A stretch of DNA of 64,000 nucleotides. Source: Candidatus Gracilibacteria bacterium CG17_big_fil_post_rev_8_21_14_2_50_48_13. GTDB taxonomy: Bacteria; Patescibacteriota; Gracilibacteria; 1-14-2-50-48-13. A program made the translations under genes and the position numbers. The DNA is taken from positions 1 through 64,000 of the forward strand of contig PFFG01000009.1 in the NCBI GenBank assembly GCA_002783265.1, in the 5' to 3' direction. The notes beneath the pieces are model-generated. The model was not told the origin of the DNA. It made no database searches and saw only the letters and a list, made by a program, of their open reading frames with translations. Below, one piece after another: positions 44,048-58,353 of this stretch. Each line of letters starts with the position of its first letter. The first letter of the stretch is position 1.

Positions 44048-46462
44048 CTAGACGGCCCCTATTCTATAGCGAATTTCCCGATCGATAAACTCTTTTTGTC
44101 GACCATAGACCAAACGTGACAATTGCGTGATCGCCTCTGCCGCTTCATAGTCAGGCGTATACCCTTCCATTTCCCATGCTTTCTGCACTGTGAGGGTAAA
44201 AGGGCGCGATGGCTGCTCATCAATAGAAAGCTTCATGCCCGCCTTAAATTTATCAAAATTGGAAATGTCCTGTTCGGAAAAGACAGGCGCAAACACCTTG
44301 GCCATAAACTCCGCATCAATTTCACCAATTTTGTAGGAAAGCACACTACCCACGTTACCAAAAATGGCTCCCTTGAGCTTCACTTCCCCGCCGAGATCGC
44401 GCTTTTCCAGCTGATCCATATACTGGTGTGCCAAAATCAGTCCAAGGCGGTACTTTCGCGCCTCGGAAAGAATACTTTCAATAGAATCCGTCACAAAGTT
44501 CTGAAATTCGTCGATGTAGAGGAAGAAATCCTGCCGCTGATCTTTCGGCATAAGCTGGCGCCGCATGGCCGCCACCTGAATTTTCGAGACCACGATCATA
44601 CCCAAAAGCTGTGCATTCACGTCACCAATCAGTCCCTTAGAAAGCTTCATCAGAATAATTTTCTTACTTTGCATGGCTTCCCCAAGATCAAAAGAAGAGT
44701 TCGGCTGTCCAATAATATTACGCATCGTTGCATTCGTAATAAACTGGCCAAATTTTGCGGCAAAATACGGAATCATTTCCTTCTTTTCACGCTCCGCCAT
44801 GTTATCGAAGGTATGATCCCACCACGTTTTCACGATGGGATTGGTCACATGCTTGCGTTTCTTTTGCTGAAAGTCATCATTCACAAACAGTTGAACGATA
44901 TCCGTCAAAGCACCACCTTCTGGGTCTGCCATAAGCGTCAGGACACCATTGCGGAAATAGTCTTGAATACGGGGACCAAAGATTTCATTACCGAAGAGCT
45001 TAATCATCATATTCATGGCATCGAGTGCCACCAGCTCACGCTCCTCGTCTGTTTTTGCTTCGAGCATATTGAGACCCATGGGGCGGTCCGTATCCGCCGG
45101 ATTAAATATAATCACATCATTTGCACGCTCTCTCGGTATAAAAGGCAGAATATCATCCACCAGGTCACCATGGGGATCCACCACACACATACCATTTCCA
45201 TTGCGCAGATCCTGCTTCATCATGGTCTGCAGAATCGTCGACTTACCCGTACCCGTTTGTCCAATAATATAGAAGTGACGGAACCGATCTTTGAGGGGCA
45301 TACGCACCTCCTTAACTTCGCCTCGATGCGTCACGTGGCCAAGGAGAATTCCCTCTGAGGGAAGATTATCCGGTGGTGGTGCAAGCTTAAAGTTCTGCCA
45401 GGCAATGTTACTGATTTTGTTGTACTTACTATGCGGAAAGTGAAAAATCGATGCAATTTCCTCCGTTGCAAGAATCATGGGTTTGTCAGGCCACAGACGA
45501 CCAAATTTGCGTAAAATGACGTCAAAAAGCACTATGGGTAGCCCTCCCTTTTTGTCCTTCACGAGGGCATTCATATTGGGGTGATTAAACTGCACAAAGG
45601 AGTTTACCACCGCATCAAGCGTCGATTTTGCCGAAAACTTATCCGCTCCGGAGGCCACGACACGAATGATCGTATCAAACCCGACTTTTTGCGCCTTCGC
45701 ATCAATATGTTTTACCTGCTCCTCCGTTTGCGGGGTAATTCGTACAGGCTCATCTTTCTTTTCGTCTTTTTCCAGAGAAAAAATTTTCAGCACATCCTTC
45801 AGCATACTTTTCCACGACAGAGACTCTGGTTTCTTCCCACTATACAGAAGCTCTGCCATTTTTTTCGACGACTCCTGCCATTTATCCGCAACCGGACGAA
45901 TCATGACCTGAATCATGGCGGAATCCTCTCCACTCAGTTTTGTGAGTGAGTTGACAAGATTGTTAATGGGGTCTGATTCCAACTGCTGGTACGTTCGAAG
46001 AGGCCAGGAGGGCTTTTTTTTCAGCTTCAAAATCGCCGTTTCCTGATAACTCTTCTCCGCAAAAATATTTCGCTCTTCTTCAATTTCTATGACCGCGTCT
46101 GGGTAATAACTCGTCAGCTGCTTTTCTATAACATCCTGCAGTTCATAGGGCACGGCCATATGAAAATGTACCTTTCCATTTTGAGAAACGTACTCTAAAG
46201 AAATCGCATTTTTCTTTCCCAGCTCATGGAGTGATGCCAAAAACTGCTCCATGATGGAAACCACTTCTTTAAAACCACCTTGCTGAGACGTCGCTTCCTT
46301 TTTTTCATCCAGATCCGAATCTTTCTTCGGAATCAGAATACGCAAAAAGACCAGCGATAGCGCCTTCTTTTTTTGTGCTGCACTTTGCATGGTTCTATAG
46401 AACACAAAGGCAAGGGCCGCACCAACGAGAATGAGAAGGATGTAGATCATAAAGGTGTCCAT
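44048..46462 (-). CDS. VirD4/TraG-like membrane-anchored ATPase
   Basis: An 804-residue protein with one N-terminal transmembrane helix (about 5-22). A 350-residue domain resembling the uncharacterised N-domain of CPR type IV coupling-like proteins follows, then a RecA-like ATPase. Walker A is GQTGTGKS at 401-408; VVDPHGDLVDDIL follows at about 425; Walker B is FFLYIDEFQNF near 645; then an arginine-containing LILAHQYMDQL. Such proteins are annotated as type IV secretion coupling or HerA-like ATPases and may move DNA or protein. No VirB4 or relaxase is nearby. It could power the VirB2-like set here, but this is inference. mraY follows 24 bases later. Confidence 0.8.
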   Translation of the reverse strand: MDTFMIYILLILVGAALAFVFYRTMQSAAQKKKALSLVFLRILIPKKDSDLDEKKEATSQQGGFKEVVSIMEQFLASLHELGKKNAISLEYVSQNGKVHFHMAVPYELQDVIEKQLTSYYPDAVIEIEEERNIFAEKSYQETAILKLKKKPSWPLRTYQQLESDPINNLVNSLTKLSGEDSAMIQVMIRPVADKWQESSKKMAELLYSGKKPESLSWKSMLKDVLKIFSLEKDEKKDEPVRITPQTEEQVKHIDAKAQKVGFDTIIRVVASGADKFSAKSTLDAVVNSFVQFNHPNMNALVKDKKGGLPIVLFDVILRKFGRLWPDKPMILATEEIASIFHFPHSKYNKISNIAWQNFKLAPPPDNLPSEGILLGHVTHRGEVKEVRMPLKDRFRHFYIIGQTGTGKSTILQTMMKQDLRNGNGMCVVDPHGDLVDDILPFIPRERANDVIIFNPADTDRPMGLNMLEAKTDEERELVALDAMNMMIKLFGNEIFGPRIQDYFRNGVLTLMADPEGGALTDIVQLFVNDDFQQKKRKHVTNPIVKTWWDHTFDNMAEREKKEMIPYFAAKFGQFITNATMRNIIGQPNSSFDLGEAMQSKKIILMKLSKGLIGDVNAQLLGMIVVSKIQVAAMRRQLMPKDQRQDFFLYIDEFQNFVTDSIESILSEARKYRLGLILAHQYMDQLEKRDLGGEVKLKGAIFGNVGSVLSYKIGEIDAEFMAKVFAPVFSEQDISNFDKFKAGMKLSIDEQPSRPFTLTVQKAWEMEGYTPDYEAAEAITQLSRLVYGRQKEFIDREIRYRIGAV

Positions 46463-46543: not shown

Positions 46544-46548
46544 TCAAT

Positions 46549-46576
46549 TTGGCAAAAAGGCGCGTGAGGGTATGAT
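46549..46576 (+). promoter_or_regulatory. Promoter of the GT4 gene
   Basis: TTGGCA (46549-46554), 16 bases, TATGAT (46571-46576). The spacing supports the ATG at 46607 over an upstream TTG at 46586. Confidence 0.6.
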
Positions 46577-46606
46577 GCACACGCTTTGTCTCGTACCACT
46601 TCTCAA

Positions 46607-47737
46607 ATGGCATACCGCATAGGAATAGACGCGCGCATGTACAGTGCGCGATTTACAGGAATCGGTCGGTACAACTATGAGCTCATTCATCATCTTGCCG
46701 CCATCGATGCAGAAAATACCTATGTGATTTTTCTCAACGAACCCGAATTCAGTGAATTTGAAATCTTCGCGCCGAATATTGAGAAAGTCTTGGTGAACGC
46801 CAAACACTACTCCCTGCAGGAACAAACCGTTTTTTTGCAAAAGCTCCTGGCGGCTAAACTTGATCTTATGCATTTTACGCACTTTAACAGCCCCCTGCTC
46901 TTCCCGGGCAAGCAAGTAGTCACAATTCATGACCTCACCCTGTCCTACTACCCTGGAAAAAAAATGACTGCCGCCCATTATCGTGCTGCCTACAATCTCA
47001 GTATTTGGAGCGTCACGAAAAAAGCAGCGGCGGTGATCGCCATTTCTGAAAATACGAAAAACGACGTCATCTCTCTCCTCCATGTTCCTGCCGAAAAGAT
47101 TCGCGTCGTTTATGAAGGTGCAGCAGAAACCTTTACAGACGATAAACGGCCAGAACCTATAGCGCGCGTTCGAAGTACCTATAACCTGCCTCGGCCCTTT
47201 CTGCTCTATGCGGGTGTCTGGCGAAGTCACAAAAACGTCGCGGGGCTCATTTCTGCCTTTGCCCTTATGGTGAAAGAATACGGATACGAAGGAGATCTTG
47301 TGATAACGGGAAGGCCTGACCCGCTGTATACGGAGGTGCCTGAAACCATTGCACAGCATGGTCTTGAACAGCGAGTGCACTGCGTCGGTTTGGTGCCGGA
47401 AGAAGACCTGGGAGTGCTCTTCAATGCTGCTGAACTCTACGTCTTCCCTTCCTTTTATGAGGGATTTGGTCTGCCTGCCCTTGAAGCATTTGCAGCGGGC
47501 GTCCCCCTCGCGGCCTCCAACACATCCTGTCTGCCCGAAATCTGTGGCGAAGGGAATGCACTCTTCTTTGATCCCCACAATCCAAAAAACATGGCAGAAG
47601 TCATGATGCGCGGTGTACAGGATCAGGAACTTCGCACGCAGCTCATAGAACGCGGGAAAAAACGTCTCCTGGATTTTTCCTGGAGAAAGATGGCGGAGGA
47701 GACGCTTGGCGTATACCTTGATATTCTTCGCGCATGA
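46607..47737 (+). CDS. Family 4 glycosyltransferase
   Basis: A 376-residue GT-B enzyme. The N-terminal domain begins YRIGIDARMYSARFTGIGRY and has VVTIHDLTLSYYPGK and AVIAISENTKNDVI. The C-terminal domain carries FLLYAGVWRSHKNVAGLI, RVHCVGLVPEEDLGVLFNAAELYVFPSFYEGFGLPALEAFAAGVPLAASNTSCLPEICGEGNALFFDPHN, the donor-nucleotide site with the EX7E motif (E in YEGFGLPALE). It transfers a sugar from NDP or GDP donors to a lipid-linked or polysaccharide acceptor. Its stop overlaps the next ATG in ATGA. Likely part of surface glycan synthesis. Confidence 0.92.
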   Translation: MAYRIGIDARMYSARFTGIGRYNYELIHHLAAIDAENTYVIFLNEPEFSEFEIFAPNIEKVLVNAKHYSLQEQTVFLQKLLAAKLDLMHFTHFNSPLLFPGKQVVTIHDLTLSYYPGKKMTAAHYRAAYNLSIWSVTKKAAAVIAISENTKNDVISLLHVPAEKIRVVYEGAAETFTDDKRPEPIARVRSTYNLPRPFLLYAGVWRSHKNVAGLISAFALMVKEYGYEGDLVITGRPDPLYTEVPETIAQHGLEQRVHCVGLVPEEDLGVLFNAAELYVFPSFYEGFGLPALEAFAAGVPLAASNTSCLPEICGEGNALFFDPHNPKNMAEVMMRGVQDQELRTQLIERGKKRLLDFSWRKMAEETLGVYLDILRA

Positions 47738-48039
47738 CACGCCCCCTCGAAAAACTCATCATGGCGAGCGCAAAGCGGTTTCACCTATCTGAGGAGGCAC
47801 GGGCCGCCCTTGTCACCACGGCAGCAAAAAAGTATATCCTTGGGTTGTTTCCCACGAACACACCGAAGGAGGAAGAACTCCATATAACCTATGCACGGGA
47901 AACGCTCTATGTTCGAACGAGAAACAGTGGCCTCGCGGCAAGTCTTCAGCTGCAACGGATGGGAATTCTCAGTCACACGCGAAAGGAAAACCCCAAGATC
48001 CCCCTTCGTGCGGTGATTATCTTAGGCAGCAAAAAATAG
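47734..48039 (+). CDS. Small basic protein, possibly DUF721/DciA-like
   Basis: A 101-residue protein coupled to the GT4 gene by ATGA. The middle (LHITYARETLYVRTRNSGLAASLQLQRMGIL) resembles the beta-alpha part of DUF721/DciA proteins, where a 'V.v.s..la.eL...' pattern recurs; DciA loads the replicative helicase. The chain is short for the family and lacks a clear N-terminal helix bundle, so the call is weak. Otherwise it is a small soluble protein of unknown function. Confidence 0.4.
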   Translation: MTRPLEKLIMASAKRFHLSEEARAALVTTAAKKYILGLFPTNTPKEEELHITYARETLYVRTRNSGLAASLQLQRMGILSHTRKENPKIPLRAVIILGSKK

Positions 48040-48107: not shown

Positions 48108-48587
48108 ATGAACATCAAACACACAACGACATCGCTCCTTACGAAGGCATCTACTGCCGGAGCAACAATTACAGCAGCTCTGTATTACGGTACAGCAACT
48201 GCCTTCGCTCAGACTGCCGGGTACAACACTCGTGCAGGCAATGTGCAGAACGACCCCTTTGGTCTTTCTGGAACAGGTGGTCTTCGTGCGGTGAACCAGA
48301 ATTCTTTGGTGAACCAGGTGACGAACATCATTAACATCATCACGATTTTGCTCGCGCTTATCGCGGTGTGTTTCATGATCTATGCGGGTATTCAGTTGAT
48401 TACTAGCCGAGGTGATGAAAAGAAGCAGGAGGAAGCAAAAAAGATCCTCATCAATGCAGTTATCGGTTTCGTCTTGATCGCCATCTCTGGTGGAGTCGTG
48501 TCTCTTGTTGTCTCCATTATTATGGGAGCAGGATCTCAGGATCCTACAACCACGCCTCTCAGCGGAGAGTACGTTCCAAGCCGCTAA
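48108..48587 (+). CDS. VirB2/TrbC-like pilin candidate (159 aa)
   Basis: Signal peptide 1-35 (ITAALYYGTATAFAQ), a 35-residue exported segment, then two helices (about 72-95 and 110-138). They flank YAGIQLITSRGDEKKQEEAKKIL, the same loop as in the triple-hairpin proteins. A short polar tail ends in PSR. This is the most compact and pilin-like member in the window, with its own promoter and terminator, so it may be expressed independently and at high level. In VirB2/TrbC systems such proteins are processed and assembled into a pilus. Assembly here is inferred. Confidence 0.7.
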   Translation: MNIKHTTTSLLTKASTAGATITAALYYGTATAFAQTAGYNTRAGNVQNDPFGLSGTGGLRAVNQNSLVNQVTNIINIITILLALIAVCFMIYAGIQLITSRGDEKKQEEAKKILINAVIGFVLIAISGGVVSLVVSIIMGAGSQDPTTTPLSGEYVPSR

Positions 48588-50227: not shown

Positions 50228-50845
50228 TTAGTTATATTCCCGTGTTAAGGAAACCACGACACCCTGTATTTCCAGAGATCCAATGGGGTACATTTCTGGG
50301 TATGCCTCGTTTTCTGCTTTTAGGTAAGGATTACCATTAGAGTCTTTCATAAAGCGCTTGAGGGTATTTTCCCCATCAAGAAGCGCAACGACAATATCGC
50401 CCACACGTGGAGGCTTTTGCACAGCAACCACAAGATCTCCATCGTAGATACCCGCATCGATCATACTTTCACCACGGACGCGAAGAGCGAAGGCGTCTTT
50501 GAAAGCACCCAACCGCGTATCTTCCATGACATGATACCCCTCCACATGTTCTTCGAGTTGTTGTGCATTACCCGCCGGAATTGCTCCAAAAATCGGGATA
50601 GTCGACATGGTTGAGGTGAGTTTGCATTTTACCTTATCCAGCAAGCTAATGCCACGAGGTGTATTGTCACGCTGAATCCACCCCTTTTTCTCAAGGGCGT
50701 GCAGATGTTTAATAACGCCATTCACACTCCGAATAGAAAACGCATCCTGAATTTCCCGAATTTTTGGCGAAAAGCCATGTCCACATTGATATTCCTGAAT
50801 AAAATCATAAATATCCTGTTGTCGTTCGGTCAGAGGATGTTTCAT
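50228..50845 (-). CDS. lexA: SOS repressor LexA
   Basis: A 205-residue repressor. The N-terminal winged helix (LTERQQDIYDFIQEYQCGHGFSPKIREIQDAFSIRSVNGVIKHLHALEKKGWIQR) is standard. The self-cleavage bond is A91-G92 (IPAGNA); catalytic S127 (RGESMIDAGI) and K163 (GENTLKRF) are both present. RecA-coated single-stranded DNA triggers cleavage and induces DNA-repair genes. A LexA box is not evident at its own promoter, so the operator sequence of this lineage is unknown. It shares its upstream gap with the divergent yggT. Confidence 0.93.
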   Translation of the reverse strand: MKHPLTERQQDIYDFIQEYQCGHGFSPKIREIQDAFSIRSVNGVIKHLHALEKKGWIQRDNTPRGISLLDKVKCKLTSTMSTIPIFGAIPAGNAQQLEEHVEGYHVMEDTRLGAFKDAFALRVRGESMIDAGIYDGDLVVAVQKPPRVGDIVVALLDGENTLKRFMKDSNGNPYLKAENEAYPEMYPIGSLEIQGVVVSLTREYN

Positions 50846-50884
50846 AGAGGTGAACTTTAGAAGGCAAAAAGAGGCTTCACCCTA

Positions 50885-50913
50885 AGAGTAGTGATAATAT
50901 TTACACTTGTCAA
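50885..50913 (-). promoter_or_regulatory. lexA promoter
   Basis: TTGACA (50913-50908), 17 bases, TACTCT (50890-50885) on the minus strand. The -10 is weak. An imperfect AGGTGAA/TTCACCCT dyad (50848-50883) lies between it and the ATG and may be the autoregulatory site. Confidence 0.4.
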
Positions 50914-50936
50914 CGGTCTTTATAGACACGTACACT
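50907..50936 (+). promoter_or_regulatory. yggT promoter, sharing its -35 with lexA
   Basis: TTGTCA (50907-50912), 18 bases, TACACT (50931-50936), 26 bases before the ATG. The -35 overlaps that of lexA on the other strand, so one protein could affect both. Confidence 0.45.
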
Positions 50937-50962
50937 AGCCACATATATTTTGACGCTTTTTC

Positions 50963-51220
50963 ATGGGTACGGTAGTTTCCATATTGCTCTATACCTTGGA
51001 TATCTATTCCACACTTATTGTGATCCGTGTCCTGCTTTCATGGTTGCCAAGCCTCTCACGGCACCCCCTTGTGCGCCTTCTCTGTGATGTCACTGACCCG
51101 CTTTTAGCTCCACTTGCACGAGTCATTCCCAGTGTGGCCGGTGTGGACTTCTCTCCTATGGCCCTCCTGTTCCTTTTATGGGGAGCCCAAGAACTACTTC
51201 GTATGACCCTCCTTGTATGA
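50963..51220 (+). CDS. yggT: YggT-family small membrane protein
   Basis: An 85-residue protein with two hydrophobic helices, each followed by the family pattern: ILLYTLDIYSTLIVIRVLLSWLP and LVRLLCDVTDPLLAPLARVIPSVAGVDFSPMALLFLL. YggT/Ycf19 proteins affect membrane and cell-division behaviour in plastids and bacteria, with no enzyme activity known. The stop overlaps the ATG of the P-type-ATPase-like gene (ATGA), indicating tight coupling between the two. Confidence 0.88.
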   Translation: MGTVVSILLYTLDIYSTLIVIRVLLSWLPSLSRHPLVRLLCDVTDPLLAPLARVIPSVAGVDFSPMALLFLLWGAQELLRMTLLV

Positions 51221-53607
51221 CCACTCCCAAGTATCAGACGCTCCCCATCACCGAGGTAATGACTATGCTCTCCACTTCCCAGGAAGCGGGTCTGAGTTCA
51301 AGAACCGTGGAGGAGCTGCGCAAAGCAGAAGGATCTAATATATCTGGAACGCCCTTCACCTTGTTTGCTCCTCTTGCTGTTGTTGTCTACCTGGCACCAC
51401 TCTGTATTTTGGCATCCATGTTGTATCGTCATGGAGATCTTGCCGCATCCATTGTGGTCCTTACGGCAGCGCTGTTACTTTCTGTTGGGATTTATGGTCT
51501 CATACACCGTGTCGTCCGTGTCGAGGCAAAACGTGCACAACTGCGACATGCCATGAACAGAGCAGAGGTCACCGTCGTGCGCGATGGCATGACAAAAGAC
51601 GTTTTTGCAAAACATCTGGTTCCAGGAGATATTCTTGTCTACGATCGCAAGAGTGATTTTGTCCTTCCAGCAGATGTTCGCCTTCTCCCTGGCCACACCA
51701 TGGTTCTTTCCCACAGCTGGTATGAGAGTCATCGCAGTGGAACCCATGTCCCACCGGAGCATGATTTTCTTCCTGCCGGAACAGAAGTATCCTTTGCTTC
51801 AGCATCGATGGTGGTTATTGCAACGGGTCATCAAAGAAAACTCTTTACTATGTATAAGGCGCATCCCGCAGGTCCCCTCGTCCAAGCAGTCTGGAGCATG
51901 GGCTGGTGGTATCTCGCAGGGACACTTCTTCTCCTTGCCATCAGTACATATTTTGGAAGCACCACCACTGTTGCCTACGCCCTTGCCGCTGGAACACCCG
52001 TTTTACTCCCCTATTTTCTCATGAAAAAGGGACGTGGCCTGCGCATGCAGCAAACCCACGATGTTCCAGATCATCTGCTCTACCCTGCGGAAGAGCTACT
52101 TATGCCGGAGGCAAAGGAGTCACTCACTCTCCTTGGCGAGGAGTTGGCATCTATACGCTCCATGAAAAAGGCACCGGAGGCGATGCAAGCAAGAACAGCA
52201 CAATTTCTTGAGCTGCTTGATCTTTGTGTCCGTGACACGGAAGCTACACGCCATGGAGCCTTGATTCACAAAATTGTTATGGGCAGCAAACGCTACGGAC
52301 TGCTGATGAATACCATGGAAGAATGGACGCACGATACAGAACTCAGCCGCACAACGTTTCATGAAGATACAGGAACCTATGTGTTCCGCAGCTCCTTTGT
52401 GCAACGTGGAAACGACGAAGAACATACTCTCCACCTCCTGAGTATGGATGCTGCAACGATTTTAGAGCAGAGTACCTACATGTGGGATGAGCGTGAGCAC
52501 ACCATGCGGCGACGTTTTTTCAATGGAGAAAAACAGCGTCTTGCAGCCATGATTGCTACCTATGAAAAGGATGCAGCTCTCTGTTATGGACTTGCGCTCC
52601 GGGAACATGGTCATGAAGACGCGCCTCTTCTCTTTATCGGAGCACTGATCATACCCCGTACTATTCACGAGGAAACACTCAATGAGCTTGTGGCCTATGC
52701 AAAAAACGGACACGCCGTGGTTCTCTATTCGGAAGGCAACCTTTCGCCTGAATTTCTTCGCGACCGCATCCATGTGCCTTCCAATCACATTTATGCCTCC
52801 GCGGAAGAGCTCTCCTTCACGGGCCTCCGCAGAAATGATCTCTTTTTCGTTGGGCGGGTGAATGCTTTGTCGCTGCGTGATTTGCACGATCGCTTACACG
52901 GCGGTGTGTTGGTGGATACTCACGAAGATCACTTCATTAGTAATTTGTTCTTCTGGCCGACCTACATTCGTTTTAGTAAAAGTCACCCGTCCTTTTTCCA
53001 TTGGCTGCGCCATCACACAAAACAAGCGCGGGATGGCATGACAAAAAGCGCTCAGTATGCAGCCATGCAGCTGACCATAAGCCTTGGCCTCCTTGCCCTC
53101 TTTCTGCTCAAAGAAACTCCTATGGACGTGGCCATGTATCTCAGTTTTTTCTTTTCGACGATTCTTGGTGTCACTGCCTTATTCGGACATTTTACGGATA
53201 CAAATATCCATCATAAGAAGATCCATACCCTAAGCCTTACAAACATTCACCAGGCCATTTTAACCACACGGTTTGTGTTTGCTCTCTTCCTATCCGTCGG
53301 AGGATACCTGCTTCTGTCCAAAAGTCTTGGAGCCCTGTCTCTCGAGATGGTGTTTTTCGGTCTTCTTGCCATCTGTGCGGCCATGCTGGCAAAAATAGCG
53401 GAAGATACACGAAGCCTTCGCCACACGTTGGTCTACGCGGGAATTTATGGTATCTGTAGCGTTTGGGGGTACCTTGGGCTCTTTTTCCCCATAACCCACC
53501 TCGATACGGAGTACATGTGGCTCTTTCTTGGAGCGCTTCTGCTGGGTGGCATTACGTGGATCCTCGCGTCATACCAAACTGTACCGGAGAGCAGGACTGA
53601 GGCGTAA
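51217..53607 (+). CDS. Degenerate P-type ATPase-like membrane protein lacking catalytic motifs
   Basis: From the ATG at 51217 (4-base overlap with yggT) the protein has 796 residues. The layout is that of a P2-type cation ATPase: an N-terminal cation-ATPase-like segment (LSTSQEAGLSSRTVEELRKAEGSNIS), two helices, an actuator-like domain (about 100-200, TVVRDGMTKDVFAKHLVPGDIL), two helices, a P/N-like region (about 310-600) and six C-terminal helices. The catalytic signatures are absent: no DKTGT anywhere, TGES is replaced by SHSWYESHRSG, the TGD position reads YSEGN, and GDGxND reads VDTHEDHF. It cannot form the aspartyl-phosphate. It may be a regulatory or structural relic. The open frame upstream (to 51178) is rejected. 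Confidence 0.72.
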   Translation: MTTPKYQTLPITEVMTMLSTSQEAGLSSRTVEELRKAEGSNISGTPFTLFAPLAVVVYLAPLCILASMLYRHGDLAASIVVLTAALLLSVGIYGLIHRVVRVEAKRAQLRHAMNRAEVTVVRDGMTKDVFAKHLVPGDILVYDRKSDFVLPADVRLLPGHTMVLSHSWYESHRSGTHVPPEHDFLPAGTEVSFASASMVVIATGHQRKLFTMYKAHPAGPLVQAVWSMGWWYLAGTLLLLAISTYFGSTTTVAYALAAGTPVLLPYFLMKKGRGLRMQQTHDVPDHLLYPAEELLMPEAKESLTLLGEELASIRSMKKAPEAMQARTAQFLELLDLCVRDTEATRHGALIHKIVMGSKRYGLLMNTMEEWTHDTELSRTTFHEDTGTYVFRSSFVQRGNDEEHTLHLLSMDAATILEQSTYMWDEREHTMRRRFFNGEKQRLAAMIATYEKDAALCYGLALREHGHEDAPLLFIGALIIPRTIHEETLNELVAYAKNGHAVVLYSEGNLSPEFLRDRIHVPSNHIYASAEELSFTGLRRNDLFFVGRVNALSLRDLHDRLHGGVLVDTHEDHFISNLFFWPTYIRFSKSHPSFFHWLRHHTKQARDGMTKSAQYAAMQLTISLGLLALFLLKETPMDVAMYLSFFFSTILGVTALFGHFTDTNIHHKKIHTLSLTNIHQAILTTRFVFALFLSVGGYLLLSKSLGALSLEMVFFGLLAICAAMLAKIAEDTRSLRHTLVYAGIYGICSVWGYLGLFFPITHLDTEYMWLFLGALLLGGITWILASYQTVPESRTEA

Positions 53608-54615
53608 TTTCTCCTCCGTCGTGTGGAGTACTTTTTCAGGTTGGTACGTGGCGACCATATAGGCAGCTGCTCCAATCATGGCAGCGTTATCTGTACAATA
53701 CAGTTTTTTCACGGGCACCAACACCCGACTCCCCGTTGCGTGTGCAAAAGCATTAAACCGATCCCGAAGACGACTATTGGCTGAGACACCGCCCGTCACA
53801 AGCAGGGTCTTTGCGCCCATTTTTTTAAAAGCCTCCGTCGTTTTGGTCACAAGAGCATCCACGACGGCCTCTTCAAAGGCATCTAACACGAAGGTTCGGT
53901 GTTCTTCATTCCATGTACCCGCATGCGCAAGCTGTTCAACCGTCCGACGTACATCGCTTTTGAGACCACTAAAACTCCAGTCGTACTGTCCTGCTGTTTT
54001 TGCGCGAGGAAACCTGAGTGGGTTTTCGACGTCCCGAGGGAGAGGATGCTCCGTGAGATGTCGTTCAATGGCTGGACCACCCGGATAGCCCAGTCCACAG
54101 AGGCGAGCGACCTTATCAAAGGCTTCCCCTGCTGCGTCATCCTGGGTTTGCCCCAGAGCCGTAAATTGACCTGGCCCCTCCATAAAGTACAAATCATTGT
54201 GGCCTCCAGAGACCGTTAACACCACCGCAGGAAAGACTATTTCCTCAGGTGATCGATCGAGCCAGTTTGCATACACATGCCCCTCAATATGATGCACGGG
54301 TATTAGGGGTTTTTCACGTAGAATAGCAAGGGTTTGCGCGCCCGTCATACCGACAAGGAGCGAACCGAGTAACCCCGGACCCGCAGTCACTGCAATGGCG
54401 TCCACATCCTTCCAATCGCGCCCTTCCATAACCTGCATGAGTGTAGGAATAATCGTAACCGCGTGTTCTCTTGCTGCCACTTCAGGCACAACACCCCCGG
54501 TTTTCGTATGAATATCCACCTGAGAAACTATCCCCATCGACAAAATCTCCCGAGCGTCTTTGACGAGCGCCCAGGAGATATCATCACACGAAGATTCAAC
54601 AGCAAGGATATTCAT
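53569..54615 (-). CDS. tsaD: tRNA N6-adenosine threonylcarbamoyltransferase
   Basis: A 348-residue ASKHA-fold enzyme that transfers threonylcarbamoyl to A37 of ANN-decoding tRNAs with TsaB/TsaE. Motifs: ILAVESSCDDISWALV, GGVVPEVAAREH, VTAGPGLLGSLLVG, PVHHIEGHVYAN (metal-binding HIEGH), VVLTVSGGHNDLYF, DDAAGEAFDKVARLCGLGYPGGPAIE and VTGGVSANSRLRDRF. It overlaps the convergent P-type gene by 39 bases and follows the LysM-M23 gene by 2 bases. Confidence 0.96.
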   Translation of the reverse strand: MNILAVESSCDDISWALVKDAREILSMGIVSQVDIHTKTGGVVPEVAAREHAVTIIPTLMQVMEGRDWKDVDAIAVTAGPGLLGSLLVGMTGAQTLAILREKPLIPVHHIEGHVYANWLDRSPEEIVFPAVVLTVSGGHNDLYFMEGPGQFTALGQTQDDAAGEAFDKVARLCGLGYPGGPAIERHLTEHPLPRDVENPLRFPRAKTAGQYDWSFSGLKSDVRRTVEQLAHAGTWNEEHRTFVLDAFEEAVVDALVTKTTEAFKKMGAKTLLVTGGVSANSRLRDRFNAFAHATGSRVLVPVKKLYCTDNAAMIGAAAYMVATYQPEKVLHTTEEKLRLSPALRYSLV

Positions 54616-56922: not shown

Positions 56923-58353
56923 ATGTCATCCAATCTATCCCAAAGTAAGGAGCTGCTTGAGGCCTATGAGCAGGAGCAAGTTGCAAAAGCGCCAATGGAT
57001 TCCCTTCCCGAAGACGTTAAAGAACGTCTTCATGCAAATATTGTGGGGACTCTTGAACTGCAACGACAAAATGCAGAACGATACGGTGACGAGAAGTTTC
57101 ACGAGGATGGATTTACCGCTGTCCAAAACGTCGCGAGAGAAAAACATGACACCTATCATGATCAGATTGCAGAGATGGAAAAGACCAATGAGCAGATGCT
57201 CAAGCTTGCGGAAAACCTTCGTGAAGAACGAGCAAAATTGCGTGCGAACCTACCCCGAGAAGAGGCGCTTGACTATGTTTTTGATATTGAGCAAAGCATG
57301 AATCAAAACGACCAGGCGCACCTCAGAACAATCGAACGCACCGACGGTGAAGAACGGATTCAAGCGCAAATCGATGCAGAAACCACGTCGGAGGCGGCAA
57401 AAAACTATCTGCAGATTCTCCTCAAAGAGTTTACCGTGAGAAAGCTTGTGCACGGCACGGAAAAGGAAATGGATGCCATGACCACAGAGATGAATTCCAT
57501 GAAGAAAAACATGTATACTTCCTACGAAGAGATGAAAAAACCTGTGGACATAAGCACACATGTTCTTGAGAGCGAAGAAGCCCTCTACGAAGCAGAAGGA
57601 CGGCCGGAACTTGCGGCCAACACTATGAGAAATCATGTGCTGGATACAGCATACGCTGAAAAGAAAAAGCTGGCGGCACGATTGTGGGAAAAGGGACCTA
57701 AACAAGCACTTCAAAGAGCTACGGATGCGGTCATCGAAAAATATACGACTATGGAGAGCACCATAAAAAATATGGTAGACCCGCTTAGGGAAGAACTGTC
57801 CCAACTCGAGAGAGATTACGCAGCGTACAATGCAGAATATGCTGCGTACATCAAAACGAAGGATGGTTTTCTTGCTCGTTTTACAAAAGGAAAAAAACGC
57901 GAAACACTTGAACAAACGCGGAAGCAACTGCAAAACCGCGCGGAGGAATATGAACAGAAGCGAAAACAGGCGGATACAATTGTGAGTGAACTCTACGAAT
58001 TTGTGCGTCTTCTGAATATGAGCGAGACCAAAGATGGTCTAGATGTAAGCCCTATTGCGGATTTTGAGAAAAAATATTCCGTACCCTTTGCCATTTTTGC
58101 CCTCCATGGCTACCAGGAAGCCGCCTTTATTGATGCGGATAAAAGCCAGAATGCAACTGAGGGTCAGGGCACCCTTCTTGCACAATGGAAGCAAGCAGCA
58201 GGATCGCAACTTTCCGACGAAATGTATGAGGATATTCAGCAAAACATCAAAAAAATCCATCAGGCGATTCCGATGTCCCTACCCTACAACGCGATGCTTC
58301 GTGATCTGGTCTTCGACAAAATTCACGAACTAGGACGTGAGGTTCCTGCATAA
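56923..58353 (+). CDS. Long coiled-coil protein of unknown function (476 aa)
   Basis: A soluble, highly charged, nearly all-helical protein with heptad-like runs over residues about 60-115 and 245-345 (LREELSQLERDYAAYNAEYAAYI, TLEQTRKQLQNRAEEYEQKRKQAD). No membrane segment or known domain. The C-terminal 120 residues (about 350-470) are less charged and may be globular. The first ATG after the -10 is used. It overlaps the convergent O-antigen ligase gene by 31 bases. A structural or scaffolding role is suggested by its form only. Confidence 0.68.
   Translation: MSSNLSQSKELLEAYEQEQVAKAPMDSLPEDVKERLHANIVGTLELQRQNAERYGDEKFHEDGFTAVQNVAREKHDTYHDQIAEMEKTNEQMLKLAENLREERAKLRANLPREEALDYVFDIEQSMNQNDQAHLRTIERTDGEERIQAQIDAETTSEAAKNYLQILLKEFTVRKLVHGTEKEMDAMTTEMNSMKKNMYTSYEEMKKPVDISTHVLESEEALYEAEGRPELAANTMRNHVLDTAYAEKKKLAARLWEKGPKQALQRATDAVIEKYTTMESTIKNMVDPLREELSQLERDYAAYNAEYAAYIKTKDGFLARFTKGKKRETLEQTRKQLQNRAEEYEQKRKQADTIVSELYEFVRLLNMSETKDGLDVSPIADFEKKYSVPFAIFALHGYQEAAFIDADKSQNATEGQGTLLAQWKQAAGSQLSDEMYEDIQQNIKKIHQAIPMSLPYNAMLRDLVFDKIHELGREVPA

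Follow-up and report, generated by a model that had tools for sequence, protein, structure and literature searches.

A diverged P-type ATPase-like protein lacking the catalytic motifs of ion pumps, encoded next to yggT in a Gracilibacteria genome

Replacement of the phosphorylated aspartate blocks the reaction cycle of P-type ATPases, as is established and has been restated for SERCA D351N and other enzymes (PMC13322241). Could the same architecture nonetheless be put to a job other than pumping? By analogy, the closest precedent for the bacterial protein described here is human TMEM94/ERMA, whose function is disputed: one group detects no ATPase activity and no TGES motif (PMC12134183), while a second group reports that it takes up Mg2+ and needs its Asp to do so (PMC13322241). 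Our protein appears to share with TMEM94/ERMA a P-type architecture with ten helices and A-, P- and N-like domains (deduced here from sequence), the absence of TGES, the replacement of GDGVND and a Pro-containing motif in M4. Unlike our protein, TMEM94/ERMA is eukaryotic, keeps its Asp in the sequence DKQGI and has a GMN motif. No TMEM94 is named among the eight PDB sequences that match the bacterial protein at E <= 1. The best of these is the Listeria Ca2+-ATPase lmo0841 (residues 56-169, E 1.2e-4), which is a working Ca2+ pump, whereas our protein lacks all the catalytic motifs. A literature search, a weak negative in itself, found no paper on a bacterial case of such a pseudo-pump.

The gene was found in a window (the whole stretch of DNA analysed) of 64,000 bases from a Gracilibacteria draft genome of 1,276,692 bases in 11 contigs, 97.18% complete with 2.22% contamination. 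An open reading frame of 796 codons on the + strand starts with ATG at 51217, and its stop codon ends at 53607, as the preliminary description had it (Table 1). Its codon usage is normal and resembles that of the window's other genes in that frame only; the five alternative frames have negative codon scores and 13-35 stops. Given the base composition, so long an open frame has a chance probability of about 5e-16, and together with the neighbour-like codon usage confined to that frame this places it beyond chance. An error of assembly or annotation, for which one might cite the draft state of the genome, its 11 contigs and its contamination, is scarcely credible, as the gene lies inside a contig of 356,633 bases among neighbours alike in composition and codon usage. 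The 3' end of the gene (53569-53607) overlaps a convergent tsaD frame (53569-54615) by 39 bases. Elsewhere in the window, a T4SS_pilin family protein is encoded at 48108-48587 (PF18895, 46 bits) and a protein with a TrwB-type coupling domain at 44048-46462, and the frames at 46544-47740 (398 aa) and 56923-58353 (476 aa) have no Pfam match at E <= 0.001.

Table 1. Features of the yggT/P-type-like locus, in window coordinates, with the evidence on which each is placed.
Feature	Position	Strand	Evidence
yggT (YGGT family, 85 aa), upstream partner	50963..51220	+	PF02325, 68.4 bits; sequence
Degenerate P-type ATPase-like protein, 796 aa	51217..53607	+	ORF, Pfam, hhalign, codon usage
N-terminal segment, residues 7-42	51235..51342	+	PF00690, 17.2 bits, below cut-off of 20.4; within hhalign match
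Putative M1-M2, residues 47-96	51355..51504	+	hydropathy
Actuator-like domain, residues 113-212	51553..51852	+	PF00122, 29.4 bits, cut-off 28.1; shuffle test
SGTH (174-177) where TGES is expected	51736..51747	+	profile alignment
Putative M3-M4, residues 224-269	51886..52023	+	hydropathy
Region expected to hold the phosphorylated Asp, residues 286-334	52072..52218	+	Asp list and alignment
N/P-domain match, residues 411-523	52447..52785	+	hhalign with shuffle and unrelated-piece controls
YSEGN (504-508) opposite ITGD	52726..52740	+	alignment
VDTHEDHF (566-573), hinge equivalent, placement uncertain	52912..52935	+	by eye
Putative M5-M10, residues 613-785	53053..53571	+	hydropathy; global alignment of 606-796

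The start of the 796-aa gene and the stop of yggT (51218-51220) share the sequence ATGA, a 4-base overlap already remarked on in the preliminary description and visible in the sequence. That description further held the two genes to be coupled. The arrangement in this genome agrees with it, but the relatives do not: in 30 yggT loci, read to at most 1.5 kb per side, no frame matches a P-type profile or the 796-aa protein. As far as seen, the pairing is particular to this genome. By eye, the frame adjacent to yggT in many relatives (loci L043-L072) reads as cysteinyl-tRNA synthetase or IF-3. Promoter-like matches across 50700-53800 occur at chance level, and no regulatory site was established.

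How much of the protein descends from a P-type ATPase? In its N-terminal third the evidence is strong. The actuator domain passes the Pfam cut-off for PF00122 (29.4 bits against 28.1) and is recovered by hhalign as well; residues 5-249 align at E 6.2e-13 with a profile of 20 canonical P-type ATPases of the class, and residues 101-215 reach a shuffle z of 13-15. Judged by these comparisons, the homology of residues 1-250 to P-type ATPases is clear. Further on the signal weakens. HMMER gives no match to residues 251-796, nor is the global hhalign of that part against a 41-row profile significant; in a first shuffle test, with the 20-row profile and simple scoring, no single segment past residue 215 was significant, and residues 251-796 as a whole reached z 2.7-2.9. 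These blanks would suit a protein in which only the first 250-280 residues or so, that is M1-M4 and the actuator domain, are of P-type origin and the cytosolic part and the membrane block that follow come from elsewhere. We regard this as improbable, in view of the C-terminal helices, which are spaced as in a pump, and of residues 411-523, which match the 41-row profile at its correct place in the N/P part, starting directly behind KGA and running past the first TGD (hhalign score 34.2, E 4.5e-4). Shuffled versions of this segment score 15.6 +/- 2.8 and none of 100 reaches 34.2; 50 unrelated pieces taken from other proteins of the window score 25.2 at most. With these controls, the profile comparison shows that homology extends to residues 411-523 with the order preserved. 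The C-terminal membrane block (606-796) is marginal, 2 of 100 shuffles scoring as high in global hhalign, and for residues 277-410 and 524-796 sequence significance is slight or absent. The alignment path spans residues 3-788, but its significance rests on 1-250 and 411-523.

Several other alignments were discarded. MAFFT with full-length canonical rows misplaced M5 of the 796-aa protein into the P domain, splitting those rows into three fragments made the result worse, and pairwise MAFFT runs together with one all-row run in another mode gave conflicting placements.

Hydropathy by itself predicts ten putative helices in the 2-2-6 order of P2/P3 pumps, as in L073, a P-type ATPase of the same genome. 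Pfam, hydropathy and profile alignment agree on the layout first proposed for the protein: N-terminal segment, M1-M2, A domain, M3-M4, cytosolic part, six helices. AlphaFold run on the single sequence (pLDDT 39.5) and with seven canonical rows (pLDDT 43.6) gave unreliable models, with the actuator domain of the latter reaching 67-81 in ten-residue blocks over residues 111-160. The seven rows were one of three subsets tied just below the top among 220 random subsets ranked by expected motif positions, a choice that leans towards the P-type reading, and so this second model is weak and not independent evidence. P-type ATPases take all 50 of its top Foldseek places (E from 7e-14; by query length, TM-scores of 0.15-0.20), a result that the canonical rows in the alignment may have imposed. 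The single-sequence model has no Foldseek match at E <= 0.001; P-type ATPases rank 2 and 10. It is from the sequence comparisons, then, that we infer a P-type fold.

None of the motifs DKTGT, TGES/TGEA and GDGxND occurs in the 796-aa protein. Over residues 286-334, the stretch expected to hold the phosphorylated Asp, there is no Asp at all, the nearest being residues 285 and 335, and the DKTGT strand falls within a 25-column gap of the profile alignment. Motif scan and Asp list thus bear out the losses first reported. The proposed replacements fare unevenly. TGES is gone, as claimed, but the alignment puts SGTH (174-177), with Thr for Glu, in its place, which overlaps the end of the stretch SHSWYESHRSG originally named. 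YSEGN opposite the first TGD is backed by the alignment. The hinge equivalent is uncertain: spacing judged by eye favours VDTHEDHF (566-573), but the alignment sets TGLRRND (535-541) opposite TGDGVND. In the region of the nucleotide-site motif KGA, the alignment gives LSMDA, and its Lys was not found. With the register set by eye, the PEGLP of pumps corresponds in M4 to TPVLLP, which lacks the acidic residue, and the M6 core (VAMYLSFFFSTILGVTALF), likewise mapped by eye, holds no acidic or Asn residue. Histidine makes up 5.2% of the protein (41 residues) against 1.4 +/- 0.5% in 41 canonical P-type ATPases; within the window this share is less exceptional (z 2.1), other proteins having up to 5.9%.

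If no Asp can be phosphorylated, the Post-Albers pumping cycle would be impossible, and a non-pumping role is well supported by the missing residues. The original proposal of a pump-like protein unable to follow the P-type phosphorylation cycle gains support from the missing Asp and motifs. Might ions or lipids be transported all the same, by a non-canonical mechanism such as some claim for ERMA/TMEM94? The membrane block is pump-like and M4 contains Pro; for ERMA, which lacks TGES and GDGVND, Mg2+ uptake has been reported (PMC13322241). ERMA retains its Asp in DKQGI, however, and D427N abolishes uptake (PMC13322241), whereas residues 286-334 of our protein have no Asp and its M6 core no acidic or Asn residue. 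We consider active transport very unlikely.

Four further P-type ATPases are encoded in the genome, L073 (898 aa), L074 (818 aa), L157 (742 aa) and L156 (603 aa). All four carry DKTGT and GDGxND, unlike the 796-aa protein, which has its N-terminal segment, A domain and 2-2-6 topology in common with L073. By eye, L156 and L157 (G000:C3, G000:C5) look P1-type: L156 has DKTGT and TPCPL, L157 is CopA-like with a His-rich linker, and a frame resembling a multicopper oxidase lies nearby.

The preliminary description spoke of a conserved inactive protein, and conservation finds no support: no orthologue, whether without or with DKTGT, emerged from searches of the class, a sample of the phylum, contigs and plasmids. 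With the full-length protein as query, three overlapping sets, of 99 relatives, 353 class genomes and 380 genomes sampled from the phylum, yielded none, and an order-level search returned the source genome alone. Apart from the gene itself, the listed full-length matches cover only parts of residues 1-266, and DKTGT is present in nearly all matches elsewhere that were read; we take them for canonical pumps rather than orthologues. Of the two findings that the preliminary description would have taken as refutation, orthologues carrying DKTGT did not turn up in these searches, nor did a fold unlike P-type ATPases emerge from the unreliable models. Matches are listed only to E <= 1e-6 in the class and phylum searches, and for some genomes of the class only two among several candidates received a score, so these searches may have passed over a very distant relative. 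In the class, residues 214-796 gave only weak, short matches (E 0.003 and above). Peptide-pattern scans of genome contigs (two different queries) and of viral contigs found no orthologue; among viral contigs L073 as sole query had no match and an alignment query recovered 30 canonical P-type loci. Plasmids yielded two matches with ATPase annotations, one over residues 2-247 and one over 10-200, and no orthologue.

Actuator matches were compared across 70 genomes, the source and 69 others of the class. The 796-aa gene scores 28.8 bits and the others listed 119-220 bits, except for one located where a contig starts (37.8 bits) and one below threshold (19 bits). The weak 19-bit match, at G057:C5, was rejected by eye as unlike a pump: it lies in a 1144-residue frame without DKTGT and with a signal-peptide-like start. 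TGA codons were seen inside conserved genes of several class genomes, mainly of families f10 and f14, which suggests that TGA is read as an amino acid in part of the class; a code with TGA as a sense codon is known for Gracilibacteria and Absconditabacteria. Together with the size of the genome, this points to a place within the Patescibacteria. The 796-aa gene and its P-type relatives in the same genome have no in-frame TGA.

A solitary gene, stripped of its catalytic motifs and one of five P-type genes of which the other four retain DKTGT, could be a relic: a duplicated pump that has lost its function and drifts with its frame not yet broken. We think this rather unlikely. All 796 codons are open with codon usage like that of the neighbours, neutral drift to such divergence would be expected to bring stops, and the genome measures merely 1.28 Mb. 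It is a matter of judgement, but because the frame has stayed intact in a small genome although the protein is deeply diverged, we prefer a scaffold or regulator to a relic.

Probably, though far from certainly, the protein derives from a P2/P3-type ATPase from which it has diverged, does not pump and is kept as a membrane scaffold or regulator. On this view the residues that served phosphorylation, dephosphorylation, Mg2+ coordination and ATP binding in the ancestral P2/P3 pump have gone, as have, so far as they can be aligned, those for cation binding, and the descendant would no longer run the Post-Albers pumping cycle. Made together with YggT by coupled translation, such a protein might use the head domains of its pump-like fold to bind a partner or ligand. 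Given the 41 His, sensing of metal or pH is one possible trigger. Taken to its full extent, this would be a prokaryotic pseudo-pump maintained by selection, in which a whole P2/P3 scaffold has become a His-rich membrane sensor or regulator that transports nothing and acts together with YggT; so specific a proposal is a doubtful one. A useless gene of such size is unexpected in a small genome. Should the gene be maintained, its product would pose in bacteria the same puzzle as TMEM94: P-type architecture put to a use other than pumping.
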